NCBI GenBank assembly: GCA_001802645.1
Contig: MGZJ01000091.1
Span: 1-35,159, forward strand
Length of the DNA stretch: 35,159 bases
Direction: 5' to 3'
Origin: Geobacteraceae bacterium GWC2_53_11
GTDB lineage: Bacteria > Desulfobacterota > Desulfuromonadia > Geobacterales > Pseudopelobacteraceae
Numbering within the stretch: position 1 is the first letter of the stretch; every line of letters starts with the position of its first letter. A program made the translations under genes and the position numbers. A model generated the notes under the pieces. That model saw only the letters and a list, made by a program, of their open reading frames with translations. It had not been told where the DNA came from and searched no databases. Shown one piece after another: positions 12,822-30,265 of this stretch.

Positions 12822-14162
12822 ATGTCTCGTTTACTCATGGTTTGTATGGTCATAGTGATTTCGGCGGGTGCTGCCAGTGCTGAGACGCTGCAGTTGACGC
12901 TCAAGGATGCCATAGGCAGGGGGCTTGAAAATAACAACCGGATCAAGGCGGCGCTGTTTACCTCGCAGGCCGCCCGGCAGGGCGTCACCAGTGCCACGTC
13001 CCGCTATCTGCCCGCCATTGCGTTCGAAGAAACCCTGGTGGTGTCAAATTCGCCGATCAATACGTTTATGATGAAGCTCGACGAGGGGCGTTTTACCAAT
13101 AACGATTTTCAGATCAGTAACCTCAATAACCCCTCGGCGCAGCATGATTTCAAAACGGCCCTGTCAATCCAGCAGCCGCTGTTTGTACCGGCGCTCGCTT
13201 CGATGAGGGAGCTGGCCGTCAAGGATGCGCAGAAATCAGAACTGGATCTGGAAGCGGCGCGTCAGGGTATTGCGTTTCAGGTGTTTCATACCTACCTGAA
13301 TGTGCAGCGGGCTGCTGCACAGCTGAAGGCCTCTGATCAGGCGGTTGCCGATGCCCGGGAAAACATGCGTCTGGCTACCGTCAGAACCGCTTCCGGTGTC
13401 GGGCTCAAATCGGACGAGCTGCGCTCCCGCACCAATCTTTCACAGGTAGAGCAGCAGCAGATCACCGCCCGGAACAATGTGACGCTGTCACGGATGAAAC
13501 TGGCGCAGCTGATCGGTCTGCCGGAAGATGCGTCCTATGAGGTATCCGGATTGCTGGAGGACGTCAGTGTGCCTGAGATGAATGAGCAGGTTGTAACGGA
13601 AGCTCTCCAAAATCGGGTTGAAATCAAACAATCGCAAACTGATCTGGAGAAATCAGATACGGCGCTCCGCCTTGCCCGCAGCGAATATCTGCCGACGGTG
13701 GGTGCCTTTGCCTCCTATCAATTGAACGCCCAGGATACGCCGTTCGGGGCCGACAACGATGCCTGGACCGCCGGTGTTTCCCTCAAATGGAACATTTTTG
13801 ACGGGTTCCGCACTACCAGTGAACGGAAGCGGGCGCTCTCCGGTCAATCGGCAGCACGCGAAATGCTGGAATCGGCTACCAAGGATGTCCGTTATCAGGT
13901 CAAAGAAAGTTATATCCGGCGTGATGAAGCGGCCAAGCAGCGTGAGGTGGCGCGGAATTCCGTGCAGGATGCGGAAGAAACGGTCCGGCTGCTCACCAAA
14001 CGGTACGAAAATTCGCTGGCAACCATGGTGGAACTGCTTGACGCACAATCAGCACTTAACCAGGCCAGGGCAAATCTGGTGGAAACAGAGGCCGGATACG
14101 CACTTGCAGGCGGACAGGTCTATTACATGACGGGAACATTCGTGAAGGAGATACGTAAATGA
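12822..14162 (+). CDS. TolC-family outer-membrane efflux protein
   Basis: A 446-residue outer-membrane factor of a tripartite exporter. A signal peptide (about 1-20, ending ASA) precedes two repeated, mainly helical OEP modules (about 25-230 and 240-430). Typical features are the N-terminal LTLKDAIGRGLENN, DLEKSDTALRLARSEYLP at the start of the second half, and VELLDAQSALNQARANLVE near the end. It forms the trimeric channel across the outer membrane, to which the adaptor encoded next docks. The next gene starts inside its stop (ATGA). GGAGG lies upstream of the start. It is the first gene of a three-gene unit behind the promoter at 12768. The exported substrate cannot be read from the sequence. 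Confidence 0.94.
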   Translation: MSRLLMVCMVIVISAGAASAETLQLTLKDAIGRGLENNNRIKAALFTSQAARQGVTSATSRYLPAIAFEETLVVSNSPINTFMMKLDEGRFTNNDFQISNLNNPSAQHDFKTALSIQQPLFVPALASMRELAVKDAQKSELDLEAARQGIAFQVFHTYLNVQRAAAQLKASDQAVADARENMRLATVRTASGVGLKSDELRSRTNLSQVEQQQITARNNVTLSRMKLAQLIGLPEDASYEVSGLLEDVSVPEMNEQVVTEALQNRVEIKQSQTDLEKSDTALRLARSEYLPTVGAFASYQLNAQDTPFGADNDAWTAGVSLKWNIFDGFRTTSERKRALSGQSAAREMLESATKDVRYQVKESYIRRDEAAKQREVARNSVQDAEETVRLLTKRYENSLATMVELLDAQSALNQARANLVETEAGYALAGGQVYYMTGTFVKEIRK

Positions 14163-15271
14163 GGAATAATGTACTGGTTGTTACGGGGTTGATGACGCTT
14201 GCGCTCGCCTCTGCCGGATGCTCGAAGCATGAAGCGGGAAAGGTTGAAAGCGCACCGGCAGCGGTTGTCAAGGGAGCAACGCTGGAAACCGTCAAGCGTG
14301 TTGCCATGCCTGAATTGCTCGATGTTGTCGGGACGGTGCGTGCGCGTACCAGTGCCGTTGTCTCGACCCGTATTCCGGGGAGCATCAACGTGCTGCGCGT
14401 CCGCGAAGGCGACCGGGTGAAGAAAGGGCAACTGCTGATTCAGCTGGATGCCCGTGAAAATCAGGCCACCGCCGCCGTGGCGACTGCGGCAATCGACGAA
14501 GCCCGCAGAGGACTTGATGAAGCGCTGTCGCGCAAAAAGCTGAGCGATACGACCTTTGACCGCTACCAGAACCTCTTCAAGGAACAGGCGGTCAGCCGTC
14601 AGGAATTCGATGTCCGTCAGACCGAAAAAGATATGGCTTCCCAAGGGGTGGCGCGTGCCGAAGCGCGGCTGAGGCAGGCCCAGGAAGGTGCTAAAGCCTC
14701 CGGTACCATGTCGGACTACACGAAAATTGTCGCCCCGATTTCGGGAATTATTGCCAGCAAACAGGCCGATCTTGGCGCAACGGTGTTCCCGGGGCAGCCG
14801 CTCCTGACGATTGAGGATGAAGGAAGCTATCAGCTGGAACTGGCTCTGCCGGAAAGCGATGCCGCCAAAGTTAAGCCGGGTTCGTCGCTACAGGTGACGC
14901 TTGATTCCGTGGGGAGTACCTTTGCCGCGAAAATCGCCGAAATCGTGCCGACCGCCGACCCGGGGAGCCGTACCTTTACGGCCAAGATCACGCTCACCCA
15001 GAAAGGGCTTAAATCCGGTATGTTCGGCCGTGCTTCCATCAACCTCGGCTCCACGGTTGACGGCATCACCGTACCGAAAAAAGCGGTTGTCGAGCATGGT
15101 GCGCTGGCTTCGGTCTGGGTTGTGGAGAAAGACGGCAGCGCCCGCATGAGGATCGTCAAGGTCGGCAGACAGACCGGCGAACGGGTGGAGATTCTTTCCG
15201 GATTGTCGGATGGTGACCGGGTGATTGTCACCGGTATCGAAAAAGTAACTGAAGGGGCAAAGGTGGAGTAA
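14159..15271 (+). CDS. RND efflux periplasmic adaptor (membrane fusion protein), probable lipoprotein
   Basis: A 370-residue adaptor. The N-terminal signal ends in ASAGC with Cys at 21, a relaxed lipobox, so it is probably lipid-anchored to the inner membrane. Barrel-sandwich (lipoyl-like) halves (about 60-100 and 180-215; GDRVKKGQLLIQLDARE and ISGIIASKQADLGATV) surround an alpha-helical hairpin (about 100-175). A beta-barrel (about 215-290) and a membrane-proximal domain (about 295-365) follow. It overlaps the TolC-like gene by four bases and is followed by the permease after 3 bases. The family bridges permease and outer-membrane channel. Confidence 0.94.
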   Translation: MRNNVLVVTGLMTLALASAGCSKHEAGKVESAPAAVVKGATLETVKRVAMPELLDVVGTVRARTSAVVSTRIPGSINVLRVREGDRVKKGQLLIQLDARENQATAAVATAAIDEARRGLDEALSRKKLSDTTFDRYQNLFKEQAVSRQEFDVRQTEKDMASQGVARAEARLRQAQEGAKASGTMSDYTKIVAPISGIIASKQADLGATVFPGQPLLTIEDEGSYQLELALPESDAAKVKPGSSLQVTLDSVGSTFAAKIAEIVPTADPGSRTFTAKITLTQKGLKSGMFGRASINLGSTVDGITVPKKAVVEHGALASVWVVEKDGSARMRIVKVGRQTGERVEILSGLSDGDRVIVTGIEKVTEGAKVE

Positions 15272-15274
15272 CCC

Positions 15275-18200
15275 ATGGAAAACCTTGGTTTTGCCGGAAA
15301 AATTGCCCGTGCTTTCATAAATTCAAAGCTGACACCGTTGATTGTGGGGGCGTCCCTGCTGCTCGGCCTGTTCGCCGTCAAGATGACCCCGCGTGAGGAA
15401 GAGCCGCAGATCGTCGTACCGATGGTGGATATCTATCTGCCGATGCCCGGTTCGTCGCCGCAGGAAGTGCAGGAGCGGGTGGTCAAGCCGTTCGAAGCCA
15501 AGCTGTGGGAGATCAAGGGGGTTGAATACCTCTATTCCATGAGCCGTCCCGGCATGGGAATCATCACGGTTCGCTATCAGGTCGGTCAGCCGATGGAAGA
15601 GTCGCTGGTCAAACTGTACAACAAGGTCATGAGCAACCGCACGTTGCTTCCACCCGGCGCCTTCGATCCTCTGGTTGTGCCGAAGTCCATCGATGACGTG
15701 CCGATTGTAGCCCTGACCCTCTGGTCGGACCGTTATGACCACGGCACGCTCAGGACGCTGGCCCGCGAAGTGGCCGACGAGTTGAAAAAGAGTGAGAATA
15801 CTGCCGAAACAACCATTACCGGCGGGCTTTCCCGCCAGCTGCGGGTCACGCTGGACGCGCCCCGTCTGGCCGGGTTCGGCCTGTCACCGCTCCAGGTTGC
15901 CGGCGCCTTGCAGAAGGGTAACGCTTCGTTGCCGTCGGGCAGTTATGCCAGCGACAATAAGTCCATGCTCGTGCAGACCGGCGGATTCCTTGAAAATGCC
16001 GATGCGGTCAAACGTCTGGTGGTCGGCGTTTATGGCGGCAAACCGGTGTACCTGTCCGACGTTGCCAAAATAGAAGATGGCCTCAGCGAGCCGGATGACT
16101 ATGTCTTTTTCGGCATGGGACCGGCTGCCGCGCACAAGAAAATATCCGGTAACGCCCGGCAGGATTACGCGGCAGTCACCATTGCCGTTGCCAAGCGGAC
16201 CGGTGCCAATGCCACCTGGATTGCCGACGATCTTCTGAAAAAGATCGAAAGCATGAAGGGGAAAACAATCCCTTCCGATGTACAGGTCTCCATCACCCGC
16301 AACTATGGCGAGACCGCACGGGAAAAGAACAACGAACTGCTCTTTCACATGTTCCTGGCAGCCATCTCGGTTACCATCCTGATTGCACTATTTATGGGGT
16401 GGCGTGCCGGTGCGGTGGCGGCGATAGCCATTCCGGTCACCCTGGCGCTGACCCTGCTGGTGATTTACCTGATTGGCTACACGCTTAACCGCATCACCCT
16501 GTTTGCGCTCATTTTCTCCATCGGTATCCTGGTGGACGACGCGATTGTGGTCGTGGAAAACATCCACCGTTTTTTCACCACCAAGGTGATGAATCCCCTG
16601 GATGCGGCTATTCAGGCGGTTGACGAGGTCGGTAACCCGACCATCCTGGCCACCTTTGCCGTTATCGCGTCGGTTATGCCGATGGGATTTGTCGGTGGAC
16701 TGATGGGGCCGTACATGCGTCCGATCCCGGTTGGCGCAAGCACCGCCATGATGCTCTCCATGTTTATCGCCTTTATTGTGACCCCCTATTTTGCCTACCG
16801 TTTTATGAAGGGTGAGGCGCATCACAAGGCAACCGACGAAGTAAAGGTCTCGATGCTGACCTCCTTCTATCGCCGTTTGATGGGGTCGTTCCTGCATAAC
16901 CCGAAAATGCGCACGGCGTTTCTGGCCGGTGTGGTGCTGCTGTTGCTGGCGTCCTGCTCGCTCATCTACTTCAAGGCGGTCACCGTAAAAATGCTGCCGT
17001 TCGACAACAAGAACGAGCTGCAGATTATCATCGACGCCCCGGACGGAACCCCGCTGGAGCAGACCGCCCGAATAACAAAGGAGATGGGGGATGCCCTCCG
17101 CACGGTTCCCGAAGTCACCGATTTCCAGCAGTATATCGGCACCAGCGCGCCGTTCAATTTCAACGGTCTGGTGCGTCACTACTACCTGCGCAAAGGGTCC
17201 AGCCTGGCTGATATCCAGGTCAACCTGCTTCCCAAGGAAGAGCGTAAGGATCAGTCCCACGCCATTGCCAAGCGTATCCGTCCTCTGGTAAAGGCGATTG
17301 CCGACAAATACGGCGCACGGGTGAAAGTTGCCGAAATACCGCCGGGTCCGCCGGTGCTGGCAACCCTGGTGGCGGAACTGTACGGTCCGGATGACGCTTC
17401 CCGCGCAGCAACCGCTGCCAAGGTTAAGGCCATCATGGCCAAGACCGAAGGCGTGGTCGATGTGGATTGGTACCGTGAGGATAATCAGGCGAAAACAACC
17501 TTCACCGTTGATCGTGAGAAAGCCGCCCTGTCCGGTGTAGCAGTGGATGATGTGGCCAAAACCCTGCACATTGCCCTGAATGGTCAGGATGCCGGGTTGC
17601 TGCACCTGCCCAAAGAAAAAGAGCCGGTGACCATCAACCTGCGGCTTCCGGCCGGACAACGCAGCTCTGTCGCAGCTCTGTCATCGGTCTATGTTACCGG
17701 TGCAAAGGGTAATATACCGCTCTCGCAATTGGTGAAGGTCACGAGTGGCAGTGAAGAGAAAACCCTCTATCGCAAGAACCTTAAGAACGTCATCTACGTA
17801 ACCGCCGATGTGGCGGGACAGATCGAAGCGCCGGTCTATGCGATTCTGAAAATGCAGAAGGAAATCGACGCCATCGCCTCTGCTGACGGGCAGAAGATAG
17901 AGGTCCTAGCTTCGAAACAGCCTTGGAGTGAAGAGCATATCGGCATGAAGTGGGATGGCGAATGGCATATTACCTTTGAAGTGTTCCGTGACCTGGGTAT
18001 CGCCTTTGGCGCGGTAATGGTGCTGATTTACATCCTGGTGGTCGCCTGGTTCAGGGATTTCACCACGCCGCTGGTCATCATGGCGCCGATTCCGCTGACC
18101 CTGATAGGTATTCTACCGGGACATGCCATGTTTGGCGCGTTCTTTACCGCTACCAGTATGATCGGTTTTATCGCCCTGGCCGGAATCATAGTGCGAAACT

Positions 18201-18499
18201 CGATTATTCTCATCGACTTCGCGGTACTGCGCAGGGAAGAAGGGCTGTCGCTGGACGAGGCGATTATCGAAGCCGGAGCTGTCCGGTTCCGCCCCATGCT
18301 GCTGACTGCGGCGGCGGTTGTGGTGGGGAGCTTCGTTATTCTGTTCGACCCGATTTTCCAGGGTTTGGCCATTGCCTTGATGTGCGGCGAAATAGCTGCT
18401 ACAACACTGTCCCAAATTACGATTCCGATACTCTATTTTCTTGTACAACGACGGAAAGAACCGCGTAAAGCAAACCTTACCACCCCTAGCCCCTCCTAA
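15275..18499 (+). CDS. RND-family efflux permease (AcrB-like)
   Basis: A 1074-residue inner-membrane proton-driven pump. It has the usual twofold layout: TM1 at about 20-42, a large periplasmic loop (about 45-345), TM2-6 (about 345-510), TM7 (about 545-570), a second loop (about 570-890) and TM8-12 (about 895-1060). The proton-relay pair is visible as LVDDAIVVVENIHR (Asp 420/421). The layout fits hydrophobe/amphiphile exporters more than metal CzcA pumps, but specificity is not certain. The last eight or so residues (NLTTPSPS) and the stop codon are encoded by the left end of the GC-rich repeat at 18475. This suggests that the repeat inserted into, or was recruited by, the 3' end of the gene. 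Confidence 0.95.
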   Translation: MENLGFAGKIARAFINSKLTPLIVGASLLLGLFAVKMTPREEEPQIVVPMVDIYLPMPGSSPQEVQERVVKPFEAKLWEIKGVEYLYSMSRPGMGIITVRYQVGQPMEESLVKLYNKVMSNRTLLPPGAFDPLVVPKSIDDVPIVALTLWSDRYDHGTLRTLAREVADELKKSENTAETTITGGLSRQLRVTLDAPRLAGFGLSPLQVAGALQKGNASLPSGSYASDNKSMLVQTGGFLENADAVKRLVVGVYGGKPVYLSDVAKIEDGLSEPDDYVFFGMGPAAAHKKISGNARQDYAAVTIAVAKRTGANATWIADDLLKKIESMKGKTIPSDVQVSITRNYGETAREKNNELLFHMFLAAISVTILIALFMGWRAGAVAAIAIPVTLALTLLVIYLIGYTLNRITLFALIFSIGILVDDAIVVVENIHRFFTTKVMNPLDAAIQAVDEVGNPTILATFAVIASVMPMGFVGGLMGPYMRPIPVGASTAMMLSMFIAFIVTPYFAYRFMKGEAHHKATDEVKVSMLTSFYRRLMGSFLHNPKMRTAFLAGVVLLLLASCSLIYFKAVTVKMLPFDNKNELQIIIDAPDGTPLEQTARITKEMGDALRTVPEVTDFQQYIGTSAPFNFNGLVRHYYLRKGSSLADIQVNLLPKEERKDQSHAIAKRIRPLVKAIADKYGARVKVAEIPPGPPVLATLVAELYGPDDASRAATAAKVKAIMAKTEGVVDVDWYREDNQAKTTFTVDREKAALSGVAVDDVAKTLHIALNGQDAGLLHLPKEKEPVTINLRLPAGQRSSVAALSSVYVTGAKGNIPLSQLVKVTSGSEEKTLYRKNLKNVIYVTADVAGQIEAPVYAILKMQKEIDAIASADGQKIEVLASKQPWSEEHIGMKWDGEWHITFEVFRDLGIAFGAVMVLIYILVVAWFRDFTTPLVIMAPIPLTLIGILPGHAMFGAFFTATSMIGFIALAGIIVRNSIILIDFAVLRREEGLSLDEAIIEAGAVRFRPMLLTAAAVVVGSFVILFDPIFQGLAIALMCGEIAATTLSQITIPILYFLVQRRKEPRKANLTTPSPS

Positions 18500-18557
18500 A
18501 ATAGGAGGGGGACGTTTAAGCTCCCCTCCTTGATAAGGAGGGGTTGGGGGTGGTGGC
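18475..18557. repeat. GC-rich palindromic repeat, copy 3, overlapping the permease 3' end
   Basis: Begins CCTTACCACCCCTAGCCCC and ends GGAGGGGTTGGGGGTGG, with an internal GGAGGGGGACGTTTAAGCTC. Its left end and its interior are near-exact reverse complements of the right end and interior of the copy at 20234-20360. It supplies the last codons and the stop of the permease gene, and its stems could act as a transcript end. Confidence 0.85.
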
Positions 18558-18591
18558 TTTTGAAATAATAGAAATGAAGGAGTAAGTTGTT

Positions 18592-19026
18592 ATGTTCTGG
18601 AACAAACATAAAGAATTATCACAGCAGGAAGTGGCCTTGAGCAAAAAGTGTCAGGAAGAGGCCGAGCAGCTGTACCGCTCGGGCAAATATCATTGTGCGG
18701 AAGCCGTATTGGAAACCATCAGGCGTCAGTATGCTCCGAATCTGCCCGAATCTATTGTCGGCACCGTGTCCGGTTTCGGCGGCGGTTCCAGCTCCGGCTG
18801 TATCTGTGGCGCCGTATCCGGCGGCACCGTTGCCATCGGCCTGGTAAACGGGAACAAAAAGGAAACGACACATTTGACGAAAGAGCTGCATGATTGGTTC
18901 AAGGGAAAATACGGCGTGACCTGCTGCAAAACCATCCGTCAGACGCATAAGGGTGTCTGCCCGGTACTGACCGGGGAAGTGGCCGGCAAGATTGCGGAAA
19001 TGCTGGGCGGTAAGGGACATGAATGA
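18592..19026 (+). CDS. C_GCAxxG_C_C family protein
   Basis: A 144-residue cysteine-rich protein matching the C_GCAxxG_C_C (PF09719-type) pattern. It has YHCAEAVLETI, then VSGFGGGSSSGCICGAVSGG with small-residue-rich helices, then KYGVTCCKTI, and a final CPVLTGEVAGKIAEML. There is no signal peptide; the small-residue segments are family-typical. The conserved cysteines are presumed to be redox-active or cofactor-binding, but no reaction is established for the family to my knowledge. GAAGGAG precedes the ATG at a slightly long distance. Its 3' end overlaps the small UGA-containing frame by 8 bases, so it heads a tightly packed four-gene cassette. Confidence 0.9.
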   Translation: MFWNKHKELSQQEVALSKKCQEEAEQLYRSGKYHCAEAVLETIRRQYAPNLPESIVGTVSGFGGGSSSGCICGAVSGGTVAIGLVNGNKKETTHLTKELHDWFKGKYGVTCCKTIRQTHKGVCPVLTGEVAGKIAEMLGGKGHE

Positions 19027-19180
19027 TGCATTGATGCTGATCGGAGCAGTGGTCTTCTGGATTGTTCTTCAGAAATACATACTGCCGCGCCTCGGGGTGC
19101 CTACCTGAATGTCCGATTCATGTGACCTCGGGGACCGGGGCAAAAAGAAAGACATAAAAGATGAGGAGAAACACCCATGA
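19019..19180 (+). CDS. Candidate selenocysteine-containing small membrane protein (in-frame UGA)
   Basis: A 53-residue frame read through one UGA (19106-19108, residue 30). Residues 1-29 form one transmembrane helix (LMLIGAVVFWIVLQKYILP) ending in RLGVPT. The UGA follows, then MSDSCDLGDRGKKKD and a charged tail. The frame after the UGA ends at a UGA overlapping the next gene's ATG by four bases (ATGA), as in the neighbouring genes, which is not expected if translation stopped at residue 29. A hairpin with a GGA loop begins 17 bases after the UGA. The candidate Sec and Cys35 form a UxxxxC pair. If UGA is a stop, a 29-residue membrane peptide remains. The 15 residues from 21 to 35 align without gaps to the end of the next protein (ILPRLGVP with ILQKMGVP). 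Function unknown; membrane thiol/selenol redox chemistry is inferred. Confidence 0.6.
19126..19140 (+). promoter_or_regulatory. SECIS-like hairpin downstream of the in-frame UGA
   Basis: CCTCGG (19126-19131) pairs with CCGGGG (19135-19140) in a 6-bp stem with one G-U pair and a GGA triloop. The loop begins 23 bases after the UGA. This fits what is known of bacterial SECIS elements: a short stem, a small apical loop with G in its first two positions, and a loop roughly 16-37 bases after UGA. Confidence 0.55.
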
Positions 19181-19401
19181 AAGAAGAATTCTACGTTGAA
19201 CGCATCGTGCGCATTGTGGCTGGAACATTTATTTTGATTTCACTCGTGCTGTCCCACTTTCATTCCCCCAACTGGCTCTGGTTCACCGGTTTTGTCGGCT
19301 TGAACCTGCTTCAATCCGGCTTTACCCAGTTCTGCCCGATGTTTAATATCCTGCAGAAAATGGGTGTGCCAAGATTCCCGAAGAGCAGCTGCTGCAAATG
19401 A
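19177..19401 (+). CDS. DUF2892 (YgaP-like) inner-membrane protein
   Basis: A 74-residue protein with two hydrophobic helices (about 10-26 and 31-47) and the signature NLLQSGFTQFCPMFNIL, typical of the DUF2892/YgaP transmembrane domain. The C-terminus, MGVPRFPKSSCCK, carries a vicinal Cys pair. In YgaP this domain is fused to a rhodanese; here a separate exported rhodanese gene lies about 1 kb downstream. GGAG lies upstream of the start. It overlaps the neighbours on both sides by four bases. A role in sulfane-sulfur or thiol export is plausible from the family but unproven. Confidence 0.88.
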   Translation: MKEEFYVERIVRIVAGTFILISLVLSHFHSPNWLWFTGFVGLNLLQSGFTQFCPMFNILQKMGVPRFPKSSCCK

Positions 19402-20231
19402 ATTTTCGCATCACGGTACTCTGCGAAAACTCGGTCGGACCGCTTTCCGGAACATTGGGTGAGCACGGTTTTGCCGCTTTGATCGAACCATCCGAAGGGG
19501 CTCCGCTGCTGTTCGATACCGGCCAGGGTTTGACCCTGCTGCACAATGCCCGGCGCATGAACAAGGATCTCACCAGGGTCAGGCAGGTCGTACTCTCGCA
19601 CGGTCATTATGATCATGCGGGGGGCTTGAAGCCGCTCTTGGATGAGTGCGGTCCGAAACAGGTTTTTGCTCATCCCGAGCTGTTCAGATCCCGTTACCGT
19701 GTTAAGGATACCGGAGACTGCTACCCTATCGGCATGCCGGTCGCCCGTGATGAACTGGAGGCGGCAGGCGCTGCTTTTGATCTGTCGGCTGATTTTCGCA
19801 CAATTGCTTCCGGTATCAGCCTTACGGGTGAGGTTCCGCGCGTGAACGTGTCTGAAACCGGCGACCAGGGGCTGTACTGTGACTGCACCGGCCAGGAACT
19901 TGATACGACACCGGATGACCAGTCGCTGGTGCTGGAAACTGACAAGGGGCTTGTGCTGCTTCTTGGCTGCTGTCATGCCGGCCTGGTCAACACGGTGGAA
20001 CATGTGGCCTATGTCACCGGCAGGCGTGATATTTACGCCGTGATCGGCGGCACCCACCTCGGTTTTTGCGGTCAGGAACAGCTTGGCACAACGGTTGACA
20101 TGCTTAAGGATCTGGGTGTGAAGAAGCTTGCCGTCAGCCACTGTACCGGTTTTGCCGCGTCGTTGCGTTTGGCGCGGGAGCTGCCGAAAGAGTTTCAGAC
20201 CGCCATGGTAGGCTATGCGTTGGAAGTGTAA
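19398..20231 (+). CDS. MBL-fold metallo-hydrolase (COG1237-like)
   Basis: A 277-residue metallo-beta-lactamase-fold protein. It has LLFDTGQG near residue 40, the zinc/iron motif LSHGHYDHAGG (HxHxDH, about 66-76), GCCHAGLVNT (metal-ligand His, about 193) and GGTHLGF (about 218). The order and spacing resemble the family of 7,8-dihydropterin-6-yl-methyl-aminobenzene phosphate synthase-like hydrolases rather than glyoxalase II. No signal peptide is present, so cytosolic. Substrate unknown. The start overlaps the DUF2892 stop by four bases (ATGA), making it the last gene of the redox cassette. The GC-rich repeat copy 4 begins right after its stop. Confidence 0.88.
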   Translation: MNFRITVLCENSVGPLSGTLGEHGFAALIEPSEGAPLLFDTGQGLTLLHNARRMNKDLTRVRQVVLSHGHYDHAGGLKPLLDECGPKQVFAHPELFRSRYRVKDTGDCYPIGMPVARDELEAAGAAFDLSADFRTIASGISLTGEVPRVNVSETGDQGLYCDCTGQELDTTPDDQSLVLETDKGLVLLLGCCHAGLVNTVEHVAYVTGRRDIYAVIGGTHLGFCGQEQLGTTVDMLKDLGVKKLAVSHCTGFAASLRLARELPKEFQTAMVGYALEV

Positions 20232-20233
20232 TA

Positions 20234-20360
20234 AACCCAACCACCCCCAACCCTTTATGCCCCAGAGGGTACTCCTTTAGTAAGGAGGGGAGCTTAAAGT
20301 CCCCCTCCTATTTCGCTTAGAAGCGCCTACTTTTGGTAGGAGGGGTTAGAGGTGGTAAGG
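20234..20360. repeat. GC-rich palindromic repeat, copy 4 (inverted relative to copy 3)
   Basis: Starts CCAACCACCCCCAACCC and ends GGAGGGGTTAGAGGTGGTAAGG. It carries GGAGGGGAGCTTAAAGTCC and the cassette GAAGCGCCTACTTTTGGTA (20320-20338), identical to 2783-2801. Its right end is the reverse complement of the left end of copy 3 with two mismatches in 22 bases, so copies 3 and 4 bracket the cassette 18592-20231 as inverted repeats. Confidence 0.85.
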
Positions 20361-20428: not shown

Positions 20429-20803
20429 ATGAAAAAGATTGTGCTCGTGTTGTTAATGATGGTGTCTCTTGTGTCACAGGTCTGGGCGGCAGAGAAGGAC
20501 ATTACCTCCCGTGACGCCAAAGCGCTGCTGGACAGGAACAAGAATATCTATCTGCTCGATGTCCGGACCCCCCAGGAATACAGCCAGGGGAAGCTGGCCG
20601 GATCGGTGCTGATCCCGATTGGCGAGTTTGAGCGGCGCGTTGGCGAAGTACCTAAGAATAAAACGATTATTGTCTACTGCGCCGTTGGTTCGCGTTCAAA
20701 ACCGGTGGCCAATTTTCTGGCCCAGCGCGGGCATAAGGATGTCTATAATATGACCGATGGTATTGTCGGCTGGTATCGCAATAAATTCCCCATTCAAAGA
20801 TAA
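20429..20803 (+). CDS. Exported single-domain rhodanese
   Basis: A small rhodanese with signal peptide (about 20 residues, ending VWA). The domain shows ITSRDAKALLD, LLDVRTPQEYSQGKLAGS, and the active-site loop with catalytic Cys in VYCAVGSRSKP. Such domains transfer sulfane sulfur through a Cys persulfide, here in the periplasm. Two close ATGs compete for the start (20423 and 20429). AAAGGA is 9 bases from the second and only 3 from the first, so 20429 is preferred; a start at 20372 would wrongly add 19 residues. It follows repeat copy 4 and precedes the porin gene after an AT-rich gap. Confidence 0.88.
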   Translation: MKKIVLVLLMMVSLVSQVWAAEKDITSRDAKALLDRNKNIYLLDVRTPQEYSQGKLAGSVLIPIGEFERRVGEVPKNKTIIVYCAVGSRSKPVANFLAQRGHKDVYNMTDGIVGWYRNKFPIQR

Positions 20804-23169: not shown

Positions 23170-24585
23170 ATGAACTATCGATGCCGACTTCCGAAAATTG
23201 TGACTCTGACAGCAGGAATAATCGTAACGGCAGCTTTCACCGTTTCTGCCGAGCCGGCAGCTCCGGCGGCCAAACCGACCGTAGCCAAGATTTGCATTAA
23301 CTGCCACAAAGCCGAACCTGGTGCGGTTCGCGGACATTTTGATCTCGTATCGTTCAAGGCCAGAACCATCCAGGTGAAGATCGATGATGCCGTTGAACAG
23401 TTTAAATTCGACGAGGACGAGATCAAAGTTGTCAATGGTGCAGGCAAGACCGGCGATGGCGAGTTTATGAAAGACAACCTGGTTAAAAAGGGTCACGAAA
23501 TCAAGGTTGAGTACACAGAAGCAAACGGCGTCAAGACAGCGGTAAAGTTGATCGAAAAACCGCCGGTTCAGGTTTCGGAAGAGATGCTGATGAAAACGCC
23601 TGAAATCGAGAAACTCGTTGCCCTGGGACCGGAAAAGGGAAAATATTTCCTCTTTGATTCCCGGCCATTGCCGCGTTTCCAAGATGGCTCAATCCCGACG
23701 GCGGTAAATCTGCCGTATCCGGCGTTTGACAAGCTGGCCGGGAAACTGCTGCCGAAGGACAAGAACGCCCTGATTATCTTTTACTGCGCCGGAGTTACCT
23801 GCAACATGAGCCCCGGTTCTGCCGATAAGGCCAAGAAGCTTGGCTACACCAACATCAAGGTGTACAAGGACGGCATGCCTGCCTGGTCCCAGAAGAACTA
23901 TTCCGTACTGTCGGCTCAGTTCCTCAAGGAAGCCTGGCTTGACAAGGATATCCCTGTCGTGCTGCTGGACGTGCGTCCTGCTAAGGAAGCGGCCAAGGGT
24001 TCTGTCAAGGGAGCTGTCTCTTTCCCTGCTCACCATAATGCAGCGCCACTCGTGAAAAAGCTTGATCAGAAACTGAAAAAAGCTCCGATTGTTGTCATTG
24101 ACGGCAAGGGGGGGGCGCAGGCGGTCGGCGTTGCCAAAGAACTGCTCAAAGCCGGTTTTGTTAATGTCAAGGTGCTTACCGGCGGTATCGATGCCTGGCA
24201 GTCAGCCAAATACGAGGTTGTCTCCGGCAAACTTGCAACCAAGGTGAGCTACGTGCCCAAACCACGTCCCGGCGAGATTGCTCTGGACGAGTTCAAGAAG
24301 TACGCTGTCAACCTTCCTGCTAACGTCATGATCATTGATGCTCGCAGTGCCAGTGAGGGAAAAGCGGGCATGATCAAGACAGCCAAACTGATTCCTGCCG
24401 AAGAGATCAAGGACCGTCTGGCCGAGATTTCCAAGGATAAGCTGGTTGTGTTCTACTGCAATACCGGTACGATAGCCGAAGTTGCCTATAACACCCTGAA
24501 GGGTCTGGGGTATTCCAACGTCAAGTTCCTCAATGCCAAGGTGGTTTTTGACAAAAACGGCAGTTACAAGATTTCTAAGGATTAA
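23170..24585 (+). CDS. Exported monoheme protein with three rhodanese-like domains
   Basis: A 471-residue periplasmic protein. A signal peptide (ending VSA, about 27) and an Ala/Pro-rich linker precede one heme-c motif, CINCH (42-46), within a small domain (about 38-140). Three rhodanese-like domains follow: about 150-245 with catalytic Cys 206 in FYCAGVTC, about 250-350 without an active-site Cys (VVIDGKGG in its place), and about 365-470 with Cys 430 in FYCNTGT. The heme plus two active and one inactive rhodanese in one chain suggests sulfane-sulfur chemistry coupled to electron transfer. GGAGGGAATT supports the start. It lies directly upstream of the octaheme cytochrome operon and downstream of a Cys-tailed partner. 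A related idea is the rhodanese component of Geobacter ext clusters, but that comparison is from memory of architecture only. Confidence 0.88.
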   Translation: MNYRCRLPKIVTLTAGIIVTAAFTVSAEPAAPAAKPTVAKICINCHKAEPGAVRGHFDLVSFKARTIQVKIDDAVEQFKFDEDEIKVVNGAGKTGDGEFMKDNLVKKGHEIKVEYTEANGVKTAVKLIEKPPVQVSEEMLMKTPEIEKLVALGPEKGKYFLFDSRPLPRFQDGSIPTAVNLPYPAFDKLAGKLLPKDKNALIIFYCAGVTCNMSPGSADKAKKLGYTNIKVYKDGMPAWSQKNYSVLSAQFLKEAWLDKDIPVVLLDVRPAKEAAKGSVKGAVSFPAHHNAAPLVKKLDQKLKKAPIVVIDGKGGAQAVGVAKELLKAGFVNVKVLTGGIDAWQSAKYEVVSGKLATKVSYVPKPRPGEIALDEFKKYAVNLPANVMIIDARSASEGKAGMIKTAKLIPAEEIKDRLAEISKDKLVVFYCNTGTIAEVAYNTLKGLGYSNVKFLNAKVVFDKNGSYKISKD

Positions 24586-24632: not shown

Positions 24633-24770
24633 GCGCTCGTGCTGCATTTTGGTCGCTTTTTATTTACCGATAATTATTCATAAATACATATAAATGGAAC
24701 AATAGCTATATGCAGTTCAGTTGCACCGCTACAGAGTTTACAATAAGCCAGTAGTCGAAAGGGAATGATC

Positions 24771-26138
24771 ATGTCAGGAAAAATTATTGCAATCTTGTTG
24801 GGATGCGCTCTGTTGTCAACAACCGTTCAGGCCAAGGAACACCCAGGGAAAGAACAGATACTGAAGGATGGCTACCAGGGGCCGAAAACCTGCGAAACGT
24901 GCCATCCCGGCAAAGCCAAGGAGTTTCTTGGCACGGTGCATTGGAAGCATGCCTCAAAGGTGGACCATGTCGATAACCTGAACCCCAACGAAGAATATGG
25001 TATGAAAAATCGCATCTACACGATGTGCAACGGCAACGATATCGTCAACAACCTGAAGGAAGTGCCGCCGAATGCGCTCGGCAAGACCAAGTTTACCGGC
25101 TGCAATACCTGCCATCCGGGTGACCACACCAGCGATGTGGGCAGCACCGGTTCCCAAGCGGAACAGGCCATAGACTGCCTGATCTGCCATTCCAGCAAGT
25201 ATGATTTCAGTAAACGAAAGCCGGTCAAGGATAAGGACGGCAAGGTTGTCATGACTCAGGACCGCAGTACCGAGGCTGCTGCCAATATCGGCAGGCCCAC
25301 CATCAAGAATTGCATGGTCTGTCACGAGGCTGCCGGCGGCGGAGCCATGATCAAGCGTGGATTTTCAATGTCCAAGGAGGCCGAAGTCCATGTCACCAAG
25401 GGTATAATCTGTGTTGACTGTCATCAGGTGAAAAACCACAAATTCCCCACCGGTCGTGATCCCAACAACTGGGCCCATGACGGCATCTACATGACCTGTG
25501 TCGGCGAATGCCACACCGCCAAACCTCATACTGATGCCGATTACAACAAGCATACGGCAAAAATAGCCTGCCAGACCTGCCATATCCCCAAGACCGGCGG
25601 TGCTTTTTCCAAGGACTTCACCAAATGGGAAAAACAGTCCAACGGTTTTTATGAGCCTTCCACCCTTAAACGTGAAGTCAATGAAACTGCTCCGGTGTAC
25701 GCCTGGTACAATCTGACTGTCAGCAATACGCCGACATTCATCGGCCCGAAGGGGAGCAGAACCGATGGAAAAAGCAAAATTTACCCGTTCAAGATCTTTC
25801 AGGGTAAAGCCTATTTTAACAAGAAAGACGGCCAGCTGATGTCGATGGACTTTGCCCCGCCGATTGCCAACGGTGATTCTCTTGCCGGAGTTGCGTCTGC
25901 CGCCAAAATTCTTGGCATCAAGGATTATGAGCCGGTTCCGGGATGGCAGACAATCTACTTTGGCAGCAATCATCAGGTAACACCGAAAAACAAGGCGTTA
26001 AGCTGTGCCAACTGTCATGCGCTCAATGGTGTGCTTGATTTTAAGGAATTGGGTTACAAGCCTGCGGAAGTGGAAAAACTTACCAATCCTGAGCTCTATT
26101 TTGAAAAGCTGCTCAAGCAACAGCAGGAGAATGAATAG
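24771..26138 (+). CDS. Octaheme c-type cytochrome of the tetrathionate-reductase (OTR) type
   Basis: A 455-residue exported cytochrome. The ATG at 24771 is preferred over 24765 because AAAGGGA is 6 bases from it and only 0-1 from the other. After the signal peptide (ending VQA) come seven CxxCH motifs (CETCH, CNTCH, CLICH, CMVCH, CVDCH, CQTCH, CANCH) and one CxxxCH (CVGECH). That makes eight probable hemes, but only if the CX3CH binds heme. Size and motif order fit the octaheme tetrathionate reductase-like family known from Shewanella, whose members reduce tetrathionate, nitrite or hydroxylamine in vitro. It is the first gene of an operon with a molybdoenzyme, an NrfD-like protein and a four-cluster ferredoxin, so it may be the enzyme's electron donor or a second reductase. 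Confidence 0.9.
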   Translation: MSGKIIAILLGCALLSTTVQAKEHPGKEQILKDGYQGPKTCETCHPGKAKEFLGTVHWKHASKVDHVDNLNPNEEYGMKNRIYTMCNGNDIVNNLKEVPPNALGKTKFTGCNTCHPGDHTSDVGSTGSQAEQAIDCLICHSSKYDFSKRKPVKDKDGKVVMTQDRSTEAAANIGRPTIKNCMVCHEAAGGGAMIKRGFSMSKEAEVHVTKGIICVDCHQVKNHKFPTGRDPNNWAHDGIYMTCVGECHTAKPHTDADYNKHTAKIACQTCHIPKTGGAFSKDFTKWEKQSNGFYEPSTLKREVNETAPVYAWYNLTVSNTPTFIGPKGSRTDGKSKIYPFKIFQGKAYFNKKDGQLMSMDFAPPIANGDSLAGVASAAKILGIKDYEPVPGWQTIYFGSNHQVTPKNKALSCANCHALNGVLDFKELGYKPAEVEKLTNPELYFEKLLKQQQENE

Positions 26139-26188
26139 AATCCTGCTCCCACGTTTTTACATCCAATGTCGTAAACGGGAGGTAATTT

Positions 26189-28387
26189 GTGTCGCTAAAA
26201 TTTTCACGCAGAACATTTCTTAAGGCGAGTGGCGCGGTGACCGCAGGTGTCGCCGCCGCCACAACCGTGCCGAAGAAGTTTCTTTCCTGGGCTGAAGAGA
26301 CGGGACAGAAGGACATGAAGCAGATACCCACCTTCTGCGAGCTCTGTTTCTGGAACTGCGGCTTGGTCGCCAAGGTGGAAAACGGCAAGGTCGTCAAGGT
26401 GGACGGCAATCCTTTGAGCCTGCGTGGACGCGGGCGCTTGTGCGGTCGCGGCAATGCCGCGCTGGGTGCGCTGTATGACACGGATCGGCTCAAGTTCCCG
26501 CTGATCAATATCGGCAAGCGGGGCGAGCCGGTCTGGAAACGGGCCACCTGGGACGAAGCGCTTGGGGTTATTGCCGGGAAGATGAAGGGCATCAAGGAGA
26601 AGTACGGCGCAGAATCCATGGCGCTGATCTATCACGGTACCGGCGCGGCTTTCTGGAAACATCTGATGCATGCTTACGGCAGCACACTGTCCGCTGCGCC
26701 GTCGTTTGCCCAGTGTCGCGGACCGCGCGACATCGGTTTCGTGCTGACCTTCGGTTCGGACGTGGGGTCACCTGAATACTACGACTTCAGTAAAAGCAAA
26801 TATATTGTCCTGTTTGGTTCTCATCTGGGGGAAAATGCCCATAACAGCCAGGTGCAGGATATCATGAACGGGCTGGCGGAAGGCGCCAAGCTGACCGTAG
26901 TCGATCCCCGTCTCTCCAACATTGCCTCCAAAGCTGATCATTGGCTGCCGATCAAGCCTGCCACCGATCTGGCGCTGATTCTGGCCTGGATTCGCATTAT
27001 TATCGAAGAGGGACTGTATGACAAGGAGTACGTTGCAAAATATGCCACCGGCTTTGACGAACTGCGTGCGGCCGTCCAGAAGTACACACCTCAATGGGCC
27101 GAGGAAGAGACATCCATCGCCAGTGATGTGATTGTCAGGGTTGCCCGCGAGATGGGGGAGTTTGCTCCGAATATCTGCATCGGCGCCGGGCGTTTTTCAG
27201 CCTGGTACGGTGACGATACCCAGCGCAGCCGGGCCATTGCCATTCTGAATGCTCTGCTGGGCACCTGGGGCAGGGAAGGGGGGTATTTTTTCCCCACGGG
27301 AGCAAAAGTGCCGGAATATCCGGGGTTACCCGCCTATCCCGAACATGTTGAGGTGGCAAAGCTGGATGAGGTCTATCCCTTCGCCCTGCTGCCGACAACC
27401 ACCTCCATCAAGCAGGCCTCCATCACCGGACAGCCGCGTCCGGTCAAGGCCTGGTTCGTCTACGGATCGAACCTGATGAAGACCATGCCGGACAAGGAGG
27501 AGACGATCAAGGCCATTCAGAATCTGGATCTGATGGTGGCTATCGACACCATGCCGATGGATATCATCAACTATGCCGATGTGGTGTTGCCGGAATGCAC
27601 CTACATGGAACGCTATGACAACATCAACCTCGGCAAGTTCAAAGGGGCAAGTGAAATCGCCCTGCGCCAGCCGACCATTGAGCCGCTGTGGGAATCAAAG
27701 CCGTCCTGGTGGATCACCAAGGAGCTGGGCAACAAGCTGGGCTTGGCTGAATTTTTTCCCTGGAAGGATGGCGAGGAGTATCTGGCCAAACGCTGCCAGG
27801 CCGGTAACATTGACTTCGCCCAGCTGAAACGGGACGGCGTAATCATCTCGAAGGGTGGTTCACCCTATATCACCGCTGAGAGTCAGCCGGAATTTGGCAC
27901 CCCTTCCGGCAAGATAGAGCTGTATTCCAAGCAACTGGCTGAAAACGGTTTCGATCCGGTGCCGCAATTCACCCGGCATAAGACTCCACCGGCCGGATAT
28001 TTCCGGCTGCTGTTCGGACGGGCGCCGCTGCACACCTTTTCCCGTACCACCAATAACTTCATGCTGACTGACCTGCAGAAGGAAAATTCTCTCTGGATCA
28101 ATGCCAAAAAGGGGAGAGAGCTGGGATTGAAAAACGGGGATTATGTTTCGCTGATCAATCATGACGGCGTCATTGCCAGCGGCCGGATCAAGGTGAAACT
28201 GACCCAGCGCCTGCGGGACGATGCCGTCTACATGAACCACGGCTTCGGCGTACATGCCAAAGGAATGGGGCGTGCCAATGGCATGGGGATTGCCGATGAT
28301 GACCTGATCACCAAGGCCGCCATCGATCCGATCATGGGTGGTACCGCATTGCGCGGAAATTTTGTCAAGATTGTGAAGGGGGCCTGA
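26189..28387 (+). CDS. TAT-exported molybdopterin oxidoreductase, polysulfide/thiosulfate reductase-like
   Basis: A 732-residue catalytic subunit starting with GTG behind GGGAGG. The twin-arginine signal is SRRTFLKASG (residues 6-15). An Fe4S4 site is formed by C50xxC53xxxC57 and C85, and the bis-MGD-binding domains fill the rest. The likely Mo ligand is Cys 176 in SFAQCRGPRDIGF, matching the Cys type of PsrA/PhsA. The length is closer to PsrA/PhsA (about 750) than to TtrA (about 1000) or ArrA (about 850). It acts in the periplasm and reduces, or oxidises, a small oxyanion or sulfur compound. The substrate (polysulfide, thiosulfate, tetrathionate, or selenium/tellurium/arsenic oxyanions) cannot be decided from the sequence. 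The NrfD-like membrane subunit gene starts one base after its stop. Confidence 0.93.
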   Translation: MSLKFSRRTFLKASGAVTAGVAAATTVPKKFLSWAEETGQKDMKQIPTFCELCFWNCGLVAKVENGKVVKVDGNPLSLRGRGRLCGRGNAALGALYDTDRLKFPLINIGKRGEPVWKRATWDEALGVIAGKMKGIKEKYGAESMALIYHGTGAAFWKHLMHAYGSTLSAAPSFAQCRGPRDIGFVLTFGSDVGSPEYYDFSKSKYIVLFGSHLGENAHNSQVQDIMNGLAEGAKLTVVDPRLSNIASKADHWLPIKPATDLALILAWIRIIIEEGLYDKEYVAKYATGFDELRAAVQKYTPQWAEEETSIASDVIVRVAREMGEFAPNICIGAGRFSAWYGDDTQRSRAIAILNALLGTWGREGGYFFPTGAKVPEYPGLPAYPEHVEVAKLDEVYPFALLPTTTSIKQASITGQPRPVKAWFVYGSNLMKTMPDKEETIKAIQNLDLMVAIDTMPMDIINYADVVLPECTYMERYDNINLGKFKGASEIALRQPTIEPLWESKPSWWITKELGNKLGLAEFFPWKDGEEYLAKRCQAGNIDFAQLKRDGVIISKGGSPYITAESQPEFGTPSGKIELYSKQLAENGFDPVPQFTRHKTPPAGYFRLLFGRAPLHTFSRTTNNFMLTDLQKENSLWINAKKGRELGLKNGDYVSLINHDGVIASGRIKVKLTQRLRDDAVYMNHGFGVHAKGMGRANGMGIADDDLITKAAIDPIMGGTALRGNFVKIVKGA

Positions 28388-28388
28388 C

Positions 28389-29546
28389 ATGCGTCTATTC
28401 GGAGTTCTTATTCCTGAAAAGGAACAGCTGATTGCCACGGTCTCTGATGTGGCCAAAGGAAGAGCAGGCCTGTCCCTGTATGCGTCCCTGTTCGGCCTGG
28501 CGATTGGATTTTATGCCATTGCCACCATCTTCATCCAGGGACACGCCCACACCATCAACACTTCAAACCTGGTGCCCTGGGGATTGCAGATATCCACCTA
28601 TGTCTATTTTGCGCTGCTCAGCACCGGCTGCACCTTTGTCAACTTTTTCGGCCATGTATTTTTTAAGGATCAGTACAAGCCGTTTGCTTCGCGGATTATC
28701 TTTGTCGGCATCATTACCGCAGTGGCGGCATTCTTCTCCCTGGCGACCGAGATGGGGCGCATCGACCGGATGTATAACTTCATTCTTTCTCCCAATCCCA
28801 AGTCTCCCATGTTCTGGATGGGTATCTGGTATACCTGCTACCTGATCGCCATCACGTGGGAATACATCAACATCCAGACCAACAGGCATTCCGACAAGGT
28901 CATGTGGGGGGCGTTTTTTGTCGCCGTCTTCACCCACAGCACCCTGGGAAGCCTGCTTGGGTCGGTCAGCTCCCGTGTCTACTACTACAGTGCCCTGATG
29001 CCGATCTACTTCCTGTTTATCGCCTTCCTGACCGGCTGTTCCCTCACCACCATCATTGCCGCCATGACGGTTAAACAGAAAAAGCTGGACGAGAACTACC
29101 ATCTTCATCCGTTTGTGACATTGCTCAAGGTCGGCCTGGGTCTGGCGTTGCTGATCACCTTCTGGCGCACCATGATCGGCCTTTCCGCTCATCTGGAGGG
29201 TTCCGAAGTCTTTTCGCTGACGCTGATCAACAGCGTGCTGTTCGGGATCGTGGTCGTCATCATTATCCCCTATATCCTGCTTAGAATGGGCAAAAGCGCC
29301 AACTGGCTGATCTTTGTGGGGCTGTTTATCATGATTACCCAGCTGAAAGCCCGTAACGATCTGGTAATCGGCGCGTTCAAGGTCCCGCTGTTTCGGGTCT
29401 ACGACATGCCGGAGGTGATTCATTACTCACCATCGGTGTATGAATATCTCGTTGTTGTGGCGTCCGCTTCACTCGTGACGGTGCTGTACATTATTTTCGA
29501 ACGCTCCGGCGTTTTTGAGGCACGCTTCATCAAGGAGGACCACTGA
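28389..29546 (+). CDS. NrfD/PsrC-family membrane subunit
   Basis: A 385-residue polytopic protein with about ten hydrophobic helices. Conserved-looking elements are LVPWGLQISTYVYFALLSTGC in the first half and TEMGRIDRMYN and FTHSTLGSLLGSVSSR in the middle. The length and helix number are closer to the longer NrfD proteins (HybB/ActC/TtrC-like) than to 250-residue PsrC. It would link the quinone pool to the ferredoxin-like subunit and the molybdoenzyme. It is separated from the flanking genes by only 1 and 2 bases, so it is certainly co-expressed with them. No heme motif is present. Confidence 0.92.
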   Translation: MRLFGVLIPEKEQLIATVSDVAKGRAGLSLYASLFGLAIGFYAIATIFIQGHAHTINTSNLVPWGLQISTYVYFALLSTGCTFVNFFGHVFFKDQYKPFASRIIFVGIITAVAAFFSLATEMGRIDRMYNFILSPNPKSPMFWMGIWYTCYLIAITWEYINIQTNRHSDKVMWGAFFVAVFTHSTLGSLLGSVSSRVYYYSALMPIYFLFIAFLTGCSLTTIIAAMTVKQKKLDENYHLHPFVTLLKVGLGLALLITFWRTMIGLSAHLEGSEVFSLTLINSVLFGIVVVIIIPYILLRMGKSANWLIFVGLFIMITQLKARNDLVIGAFKVPLFRVYDMPEVIHYSPSVYEYLVVVASASLVTVLYIIFERSGVFEARFIKEDH

Positions 29547-29548
29547 CC

Positions 29549-30265
29549 ATGGAACAGTATGATGGTAAAGATATTCTGGATATCATGCACGCAGACCTGC
29601 AGCGGGCCCTTAAGAAACCGCGTGCTGAGCGCCGTTGGGCCATGGCCATCGACCTGAAGAAGTGCATCGGCTGCCACGCCTGCACCACCGGCTGCATGTC
29701 GGAGAACCTGACCCCGCCCGAAATTCATTATCGGCCGGTAAAGGAAGAGGAAATCGGTGAATACCCCAATACCGGCATGCGTTTTCTGCCGCGTCCCTGC
29801 ATGCAGTGTGATGCTCCCACCTGCACGCCGGTCTGTCCGGTAACCGCCACCTATAAGCGGGATGACGGTCTGGTGGTGATCGACTATGACAAATGCATCG
29901 GCTGCCGCTACTGCCTGGTTGCCTGCCCCTACGGCGCCCGATCGGCCGATGTCGGGCACTATTTCACCGGTGATTTTCATGATAAAACCTATGAAGTTGA
30001 AAATTCCGGCGAATACGGCAAAAGCTACAAGCGCAAGAGCCACTGGCACTCCCCCATCGGCAATGCCCGCAAGTGTCATTTTTGCATCCATCGGGTGGAA
30101 AAGGGTGAGCTGACCCGCTGCACCACCACCTGCTTGGGACATGCCACCTTCTTCGGCGACATCAACGACCCGCAGGCGCTGATTACCAAACTGATTTCAA
30201 AGCCGAGCGTATTCAAATACAAGGAAGAGCTCGGCACCAGGCCGATGGTGTATTACATACCGTAA
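29549..30265 (+). CDS. Four-cluster 4Fe-4S ferredoxin-like electron-transfer subunit
   Basis: A 238-residue iron-sulfur subunit of the PsrB/DmsB/TtrB type. The four Cys groups are CIGCHACTTGC, CMQCDAPTCTPVC, CIGCRYCLVACPYG and CHFC paired with the later CTTTC. Together these give 16 ligand cysteines, consistent with four cubane clusters in a relay between the NrfD-like quinone subunit and the molybdoenzyme. No TAT signal is visible, which is usual for such subunits co-exported with their partner. AAGGAGG lies before the ATG. It is the last of the four tightly spaced oxidoreductase genes. A weak T-rich/A-rich inverted repeat (30278-30301) follows. Confidence 0.94.
   Translation: MEQYDGKDILDIMHADLQRALKKPRAERRWAMAIDLKKCIGCHACTTGCMSENLTPPEIHYRPVKEEEIGEYPNTGMRFLPRPCMQCDAPTCTPVCPVTATYKRDDGLVVIDYDKCIGCRYCLVACPYGARSADVGHYFTGDFHDKTYEVENSGEYGKSYKRKSHWHSPIGNARKCHFCIHRVEKGELTRCTTTCLGHATFFGDINDPQALITKLISKPSVFKYKEELGTRPMVYYIP

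Follow-up and report, generated by a model that had tools for sequence, protein, structure and literature searches.

An in-frame UGA codon in a short gene of Geobacteraceae bacterium GWC2_53_11 is very probably read as selenocysteine (Sec) in a membrane protein with a single predicted helix. The gene lies in the window, the whole 35,159-nucleotide stretch of DNA that was analyzed, and every coordinate below refers to its forward (+) strand. An earlier note, made from the letters of this DNA, had proposed a small selenoprotein here. Homologs that keep the UGA, forms with Cys in place of Sec, the Sec machinery, and a hairpin with compensatory changes support that interpretation.

A small gene with an internal UGA

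Translated with TGA as U, the frame covers 53 codons (19019..19180, +) and has homologs. Its ATG, at 19019, sits 8 bases inside the upstream open reading frame (ORF; 18592-19026). Twenty-nine codons, the last of which spell GVPT, precede the UGA at 19106-19108 (+), which encodes residue 30, the predicted Sec. The same frame then continues for 23 codons, reading MSDSCDLGDRGKKKDIKDEEKHP, up to a second UGA at 19178-19180 that overlaps the next ATG (19177) as ATGA. Cys35, encoded by TGT (19121..19123, +), follows five residues after the Sec, and the Sec protein is 53 residues long. All of this, as well as the hairpin described below, stands as the earlier note had described it. From sequence comparison, we are highly confident that the UGA at 19106 would be read as Sec. 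We are only slightly less so that the frame 19019-19177 would be a genuine selenoprotein gene in which the hairpin at 19126-19140 acts as the SECIS that directs this decoding.

Homologs keep the UGA

In a search of 147 relatives, 121 genomes had matches at E ≤ 2.7 × 10−6, each with an in-frame TGA; at E ≤ 1 the count was 129 genomes, the best matches of the other eight having E values of 0.1 to 0.6. With a profile of 14 members, matches appeared in 220 of the 277 class genomes and in 143 of the 345 phylum genomes. A profile of 22 members found them in 83 of 347 genomes of Acidobacteriota, the phylum of the Bryobacterales contig L063. The weakest matches in all three counts are chance. Among the matches listed, TGA was present in all of those from the class (down to E = 2.3 × 10−15) and in nearly all across the class, phylum, and Acidobacteriota searches. 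When 29 class genomes with weaker matches were searched again, all 29 showed TGA. Named hosts include Geobacter sp. OR-1, Geobacter sp. AOG1, Geomonas silvestris, Geomonas limicola, Oryzomonas japonica, Geotalea toluenoxydans, and Geomobilimonas luticola; 32 of the 33 named-host loci have UGA, and the remaining one, L063, has Cys. Strains with the UGA form include Geomonas silvestris Red330, Geomonas limicola Red745, Oryzomonas japonica Red96, and Geotalea toluenoxydans JCM 15764.

We examined 235 loci, of which 230 carry a family match and 156 are distinct; the five without a match are the selA locus, the selB locus, two chance matches, and one arbitrary filler. Since these loci were hand-picked from the search matches (the best ones, others spread over groups, and 16 that showed no stop), fractions of loci are not a census. 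TGA occupies the site in 154 of the 156 distinct loci, with TGC and TGT in one each; TAA, TAG, and codons for any other residue never occur there. The two exceptions, L063 (TGC, GVPTCMSNSC) and L156 (TGT, GIGTCMSGAC), are Cys-for-Sec homologs, which the earlier note had named as support for a selenoprotein. It had also held that homologs all ending at GVPT would speak against one, and this is not the pattern, with UGA at 154 and a Cys at +5 at 136 of the 156 loci. Elsewhere the Cys lies at +6 (four loci), +4 (one), or +8 (one). The remaining 14 loci have no Cys within 8 residues after the site, so the Sec-Cys pair is not universal.

Upstream of the site the motif LP(R/K)xG(V/I)xT is nearly fixed, and downstream of it (M/L)SxxC is conserved. 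The codons are mixed: the Ser at +2 uses six codons, and the Cys at +5 is TGC in 82 loci and TGT in 54. Conservation of the residues between the UGA and the hairpin despite mixed synonymous codons indicates selection on the protein there.

The 16 matches that appeared to have no stop (L156 to L171) were resolved individually. In 14 the UGA lies just past the aligned part (a few codons past it in L166, L168, and L171); of the others, L156 is the TGT form and L164 was rejected as a family member, as was the weak match L175. A few more weak phylum matches with no stop (e.g., G279 and G300) stand outside the site counts.

Several members depart from the common form. L167 (G474) and L170 (G555) have two UGAs each, GLPSU-GAPVDAGR...RPIPTUDGPSC, followed by a UAG or UAA stop; this looks like a PTUxxxSC motif duplicated within one protein. 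An Acidobacteriota branch (L157 to L161, L163, and L172) has UGA, then (G/A/S)V(P/R), and lacks the Cys at +5 (e.g., GVPTUGVPDPAGR); in L157, L161, and L163 an ArsR-type gene lies directly 5′. L166, L168, and L171, from genus g99 of the window's phylum, are divergent second copies reading KPPTSF(S/G)CPTUATK, with a Cys three residues before the UGA, and their genomes additionally carry a copy with an ordinary match. In L112 to L123 (family f13 of the class) the motif, GhGUGPxxCDLPVRK, is shorter by one residue; Sec-x4-Cys is kept in 11 of these 12, and the spacing in L123 is one residue shorter. The gene is present in two copies in genomes G002, G008, G012, G027, G076, and G079, and in G008 both copies have their own YgaP-like neighbor.

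A plasmid or phage origin was considered and set aside: there was no match in 72,556 plasmid records and none in viral contigs with one search pattern.

A conserved SECIS-like hairpin

Here and below, PMC13188914 and PMC12013277 stand for the portions of those papers that were covered. A bacterial SECIS-like hairpin, CCUCGG-GGA-CCGGGG, lies at 19126..19140 (+). Its stem of 6 bp includes one U-G pair, and 23 nt separate the UGA from the GGA loop. The bSECIS rules in PMC13188914 call for a loop of 3 to 9 nt, a stem of 4 to 16 bp, a G in the first two loop positions, a distance of 16 to 37 nt from the UGA, and a minimum free energy of at most −7.5 kcal/mol. The loop (3 nt), stem, and distance all fall within these ranges, as does the local fold, at −11.2 kcal/mol over the 45 nt after the UGA or −9.2 over 24 nt, where two more pairs form across a bulge; the bare 6-bp hairpin, at −7.2 kcal/mol, falls 0.3 short of the energy limit. 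Against dinucleotide shuffles, the 55 nt starting at the UGA (−14.9 kcal/mol) have a z-score of −2.4; the z-score over the 45 nt after it is −0.8. Taken alone, the window hairpin is mildly unusual and only suggestive. In Rfam, three matches scored far below the gathering scores, none of them at 19126-19140.

The family is far more telling. For each of 153 members, we scanned the 57 nt that follow the UGA and took the best hairpin. The loop starts 20 to 27 nt past the UGA in 118 of them, with a G within the first two loop bases in all 118; in the other 35 the best hairpin is out of register. Resampling of synonymous codons with family codon usage placed 35.2 ± 5.6 members in register (maximum, 46 in 30 trials), versus the 118 observed, and the in-register hairpins have 66 distinct stems. 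At the six pair positions, 71% of cells across 147 distinct sequences are paired in the main register versus 35 to 52% when the register is slid by 1 to 3 bases. At least five of the six pairs form in the main register in 68 sequences, in a register shifted by one base in 35, and in neither in 44. Among the 68 main-register sequences, which are selected for pairing, the outer pairs vary among CG, GC, UA, AU, GU, and UG. The predicted hairpin is conserved, with compensatory changes.

Under a stringent test that considers only hairpin energy, 96 of 153 members pass, compared with 10.2 ± 3.6 after resampling (at most 19 over 30 trials) and with 23 of 409 real neighboring TGA stops; the window hairpin misses this cut by 0.3 kcal/mol. 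Folding z-scores over the family average −1.00 after the UGA versus −0.55 before it (P = 4 × 10−5), a modest separation and a weak test. A chance hairpin is ruled out by the codon resampling, the slid registers, and the real TGA stops as controls, that is, by conservation across the family and not by the single sequence.

These results bear on the simplest alternative, in which the gene encodes an ordinary 29-residue peptide ending at 19106 and the tail and hairpin are due to chance or to a terminator-like element. UGA ordinarily terminates translation here, as it does at the ends of both flanking genes, and the z-score of −0.8 is mild. Nonetheless, both phyla retain the tail frame and the Cys at +5, neither UAA nor UAG occurs at the site in any of the 156 loci, and the hairpin stays in register across 66 different stems. 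We consider a plain stop exceedingly improbable and decoding as Sec the better reading of the site.

Sec machinery and co-occurrence

The earlier note had called for a check of the genome for Sec-decoding genes. The genome carries selA (608 bits), an adjoining selB (375 bits), and a tRNA-Sec gene on the other side of selA. SelB and tRNA-Sec would then decode UGA 19106 as Sec, directed by the hairpin at 19126-19140. Reassignment of UGA throughout the genome was rejected: neighboring genes end in TGA, and selA, selB, and selC are present.

Across the 39 genomes of the genus, 24 of the 25 that carry the gene also have selA, versus 4 of the 14 that lack it (P = 1.5 × 10−5). If selB over the cutoff is counted too, 6 of the 14 have a Sec gene (P = 3.6 × 10−4), four of these six selB matches spanning about the first 60% of the profile. 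Eight of the 14 have neither gene over the cutoff, and Sec machinery seems to be absent from part of the genus. The exception among family members is G018, which has a UGA homolog and neither selA nor selB over the cutoff at a completeness of 99%; the two genes are adjacent in G000, so mis-binning or the absence of a single contig might account for this.

In the phylum, selA is present in 313 of 345 genomes (136 of 143 with a family match versus 177 of 202 without; P = 0.02) and is so nearly ubiquitous that co-occurrence there is a weak test; for 12 of the 32 selA-negative genomes, the assignment was made by elimination. Six selA-negative genomes of the phylum have a UGA homolog. Five of these have selB over the cutoff, and the sixth, G441, has selB fragments; a seventh genome, G309, has a chance-level family match only.

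A second alternative accepts readthrough and holds that the inserted residue is not Sec: a near-cognate tRNA would read the UGA, or regulated readthrough would tune the next, ATGA-overlapping gene. In the window the second stop does overlap the next start, so coupling to the downstream gene is possible. Across the family, however, such a 4-base overlap is rare (5 of 64 same-strand downstream neighbors, from approximate gene calls). The two non-UGA homologs carry Cys and not Trp or Arg, the presence of the gene tracks that of selA across the genus, and the hairpin fits the published bSECIS rules (PMC13188914). We therefore regard insertion of another residue as very improbable and retain Sec.

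Protein features and comparison with known families

Family members, with a median length of 52 residues, have a helix, then the segment [IV]LP[RK]xG[VI]xT-Sec-x4-Cys, and then a basic tail. AlphaFold2 predicted one helix in the window protein (residues 2 to 24) and an unstructured, poorly predicted tail (mean pLDDT, 71). In all 154 members with a clear start, Lys and Arg are commoner around and after the helix end than in the first six residues, the stretches compared being unequal (32 versus 6 residues). By the positive-inside rule, this excess implies that the Sec segment should face the cytoplasm. The Sec-Cys segment and the basic tail would then lie in the cytoplasm at the membrane surface of what is likely a membrane redox protein.

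The family belongs to no named NCBIfam or Pfam family. The window protein had no match in NCBIfam at E ≤ 1 and only weak matches, below the cutoff, in Pfam (E = 0.04 to 0.07); 22 members had scattered weak matches in these libraries, the best with E values of about 0.014 to 0.022. A profile search of the PDB gave no match. Like known bacterial selenoproteins decoded through SelB and a bSECIS, the family has an in-frame UGA, a hairpin whose loop starts with G, Cys at the Sec site of two homologs, and selA, selB, and selC in the genome. Unlike them, its members are about 50 residues long with one predicted helix and no further predicted fold, whereas a thioredoxin-like fold is typical of selenoproteins (PMC13188914), and Cys forms are rare, at 2 of 156 loci.

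Four known families come closest. YgaP-like_TM (PF11127) proteins are also small membrane proteins, and the copies that neighbor the gene in the Geobacter group end in IL-x-K-x-GVP...C; they differ in having two hydrophobic segments and no UGA. The window protein had no match to this profile at E ≤ 1 (cutoff, 25.3 bits). The resemblance of this ending to ILPRLGVPTU...C spans 17 residues in hhalign, and 1 of 100 column shuffles was as good. Homology was rejected, the hhalign probability being 36% in one comparison and 6% in a larger one, and is kept as a lead. TsoB (NF045694), a rhodanese/DsbD fusion-like selenoprotein with the motif UxxxxU, shares two redox residues five apart and a rhodanese context, but its profile is far longer (572 positions) and leaves the small protein unmatched; in the window it touches rhodaneses only, at 24.5 and 67.2 bits versus a cutoff of 805. 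The YeeE/YedE thiosulfate transporter (PF04143; GUxSG), taken from Table 1 of PMC13188914, is likewise a membrane selenoprotein tied to sulfane sulfur, but it is a transporter. The C_GCAxxG_C_C selenoproteins (PF09719) match the upstream neighbor and not the small UGA protein.

The family might already have been described under another name in literature beyond that covered. In addition, deep-Sep counts 13 known selenoproteins in Desulfuromonas soudanensis WTL and none that are new (PMC12013277). Against this stand the results in NCBIfam and Pfam; moreover, no PTUMxxxC membrane protein is evident among the 119 families in Table 1 of the 2026 inventory, as far as it was covered (PMC13188914). 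By its own account, deep-Sep may miss families without Cys homologs (PMC12013277). We judge an earlier description improbable. The decoding mechanism is already known; the family is new among bacterial selenoproteins, as far as NCBIfam, Pfam, and the covered parts of PMC13188914, PMC12013277, PMC1914089, PMC5029168, PMC1242214, and PMC1794560 reach.

Neighborhood of the gene

Directly upstream lies an uninterrupted frame for a C_GCAxxG_C_C putative redox-active protein (18592..19026, +; PF09719/TIGR01909, 89 bits). Directly downstream, its start overlapping the terminating UGA, is a gene for a YgaP-like transmembrane domain protein (19177..19401, +; PF11127), the only PF11127 match at E ≤ 1 × 10−5 in the genome. 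Next come a metallo-beta-lactamase-fold (MBL) hydrolase (19398..20231, +; PF00753) and a single-domain rhodanese (20432..20803, +; PF00581), and farther upstream are TolC-type (PF02321), HlyD-type (PF16576), and RND (PF00873) efflux genes (12822..18499, +). All of these were assigned by profile matches.

Other features of the window were seen in passing. By eye, similar GGAGGGG-rich inverted repeats flank the cassette in intergenic DNA at 18478-18560 and about 20238-20350; Rfam matches to the repeat at 18478-18560 were far below the gathering scores. A protein with three rhodanese stretches (PF00581) is encoded farther downstream, at 23170-24585. ORFs at 24765-30265 resemble, by eye, a multihaem cytochrome, a molybdopterin oxidoreductase, an NrfD-like membrane protein, and a 4Fe-4S protein, perhaps a sulfur-compound reductase.

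We then surveyed four genes per side, from rough ORF calls, at 107 other loci with wide flanks. Labels were assigned by us to blastp clusters; of ten neighbor proteins checked against Pfam, nine matched. Neighbors included RND (21 loci), YgaP-like (14; nine Geobacter type and five in Acidobacteriota), TlpA/thioredoxin-type (11), ArsR-type (10), rhodanese (9), MBL (8), and C_GCAxxG_C_C (7) genes. At least one thiol/sulfur-labeled neighbor was found at 33 of 107 loci, and none within four genes at 74. The thiol/sulfur cassette of the earlier note is thus seen in the window and again in both phyla, though it accompanies the gene at only 33 of the 107 loci. In L185, L190, L174, and L196, thioredoxin-type genes adjoin the family gene (PF00085 confirmed in L185 and L196); by eye, their products have no signal peptide.

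The same survey bears on a further alternative, that of a selenoprotein for metal or selenium handling, e.g., one that serves the adjacent RND efflux pump as a small accessory subunit. RND genes within four genes at 21 of 107 loci and ArsR-type genes at 10 of 107 point that way. However, most members have neither neighbor, the thioredoxin/TlpA-type, rhodanese, and YgaP-like genes recur as well, and Sec-x4-Cys suggests a redox use. We regard a metal or selenium role as rather unlikely and favor a role in thiol/sulfur redox chemistry.

Proposed function

The N-terminal membrane helix (about residues 2 to 24) would anchor a cytoplasm-facing Sec-x4-Cys redox site. There, Sec30 and Cys35 may form a selenenylsulfide/selenol pair at the membrane face that is loaded with sulfane sulfur or a disulfide, possibly by or together with the YgaP-like membrane protein of the adjacent gene; this partner, with its terminal Cys, could be a substrate or a relay. 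A cytosolic thioredoxin could reset the pair, as the thioredoxin-type neighbors without a signal peptide suggest. The protein would belong to thiol/sulfur stress cassettes along with RND efflux genes, ArsR-type regulators, and rhodaneses; of these, the regulators and the pumps suggest that a thiol-reactive or metal stress induces the cassettes. Such links reportedly exist in another system, in a study on polysulfide sensing by SqrR and thioredoxin.

We infer, tentatively, that Sec30/Cys35 serves as a sulfane-sulfur or disulfide carrier reset by thioredoxin. More broadly, a possible though doubtful picture is that of a Sec-dominant family of single-pass membrane proteins in Thermodesulfobacteriota (Desulfobacterota) and Acidobacteriota, with rare and probably derived Cys forms and with side branches that have two Sec residues or no second Cys. 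It would act as a membrane-tethered selenol carrier between thioredoxin and YgaP-like proteins in sulfane-sulfur handling.

Implications

The family may have been overlooked because the frame up to the UGA, at 29 codons, is too short for ordinary gene calling. Rarity of Cys homologs may have contributed as well, since common selenoprotein finders depend on Cys/Sec pairs (PMC13188914). The finding suggests that further tiny, Sec-dominant proteins have escaped notice. The known selenoprotein families would gain one that has no profile in the libraries searched yet occurs in most of the genomes sampled (220 of 277) from a well-studied class of metal- and sulfur-reducing bacteria. The relatives in two phyla point to a widespread selenium protein family, unlisted in the reference collections checked, and its members offer a way to test a connection of selenium with thiol/sulfur chemistry at the membrane.
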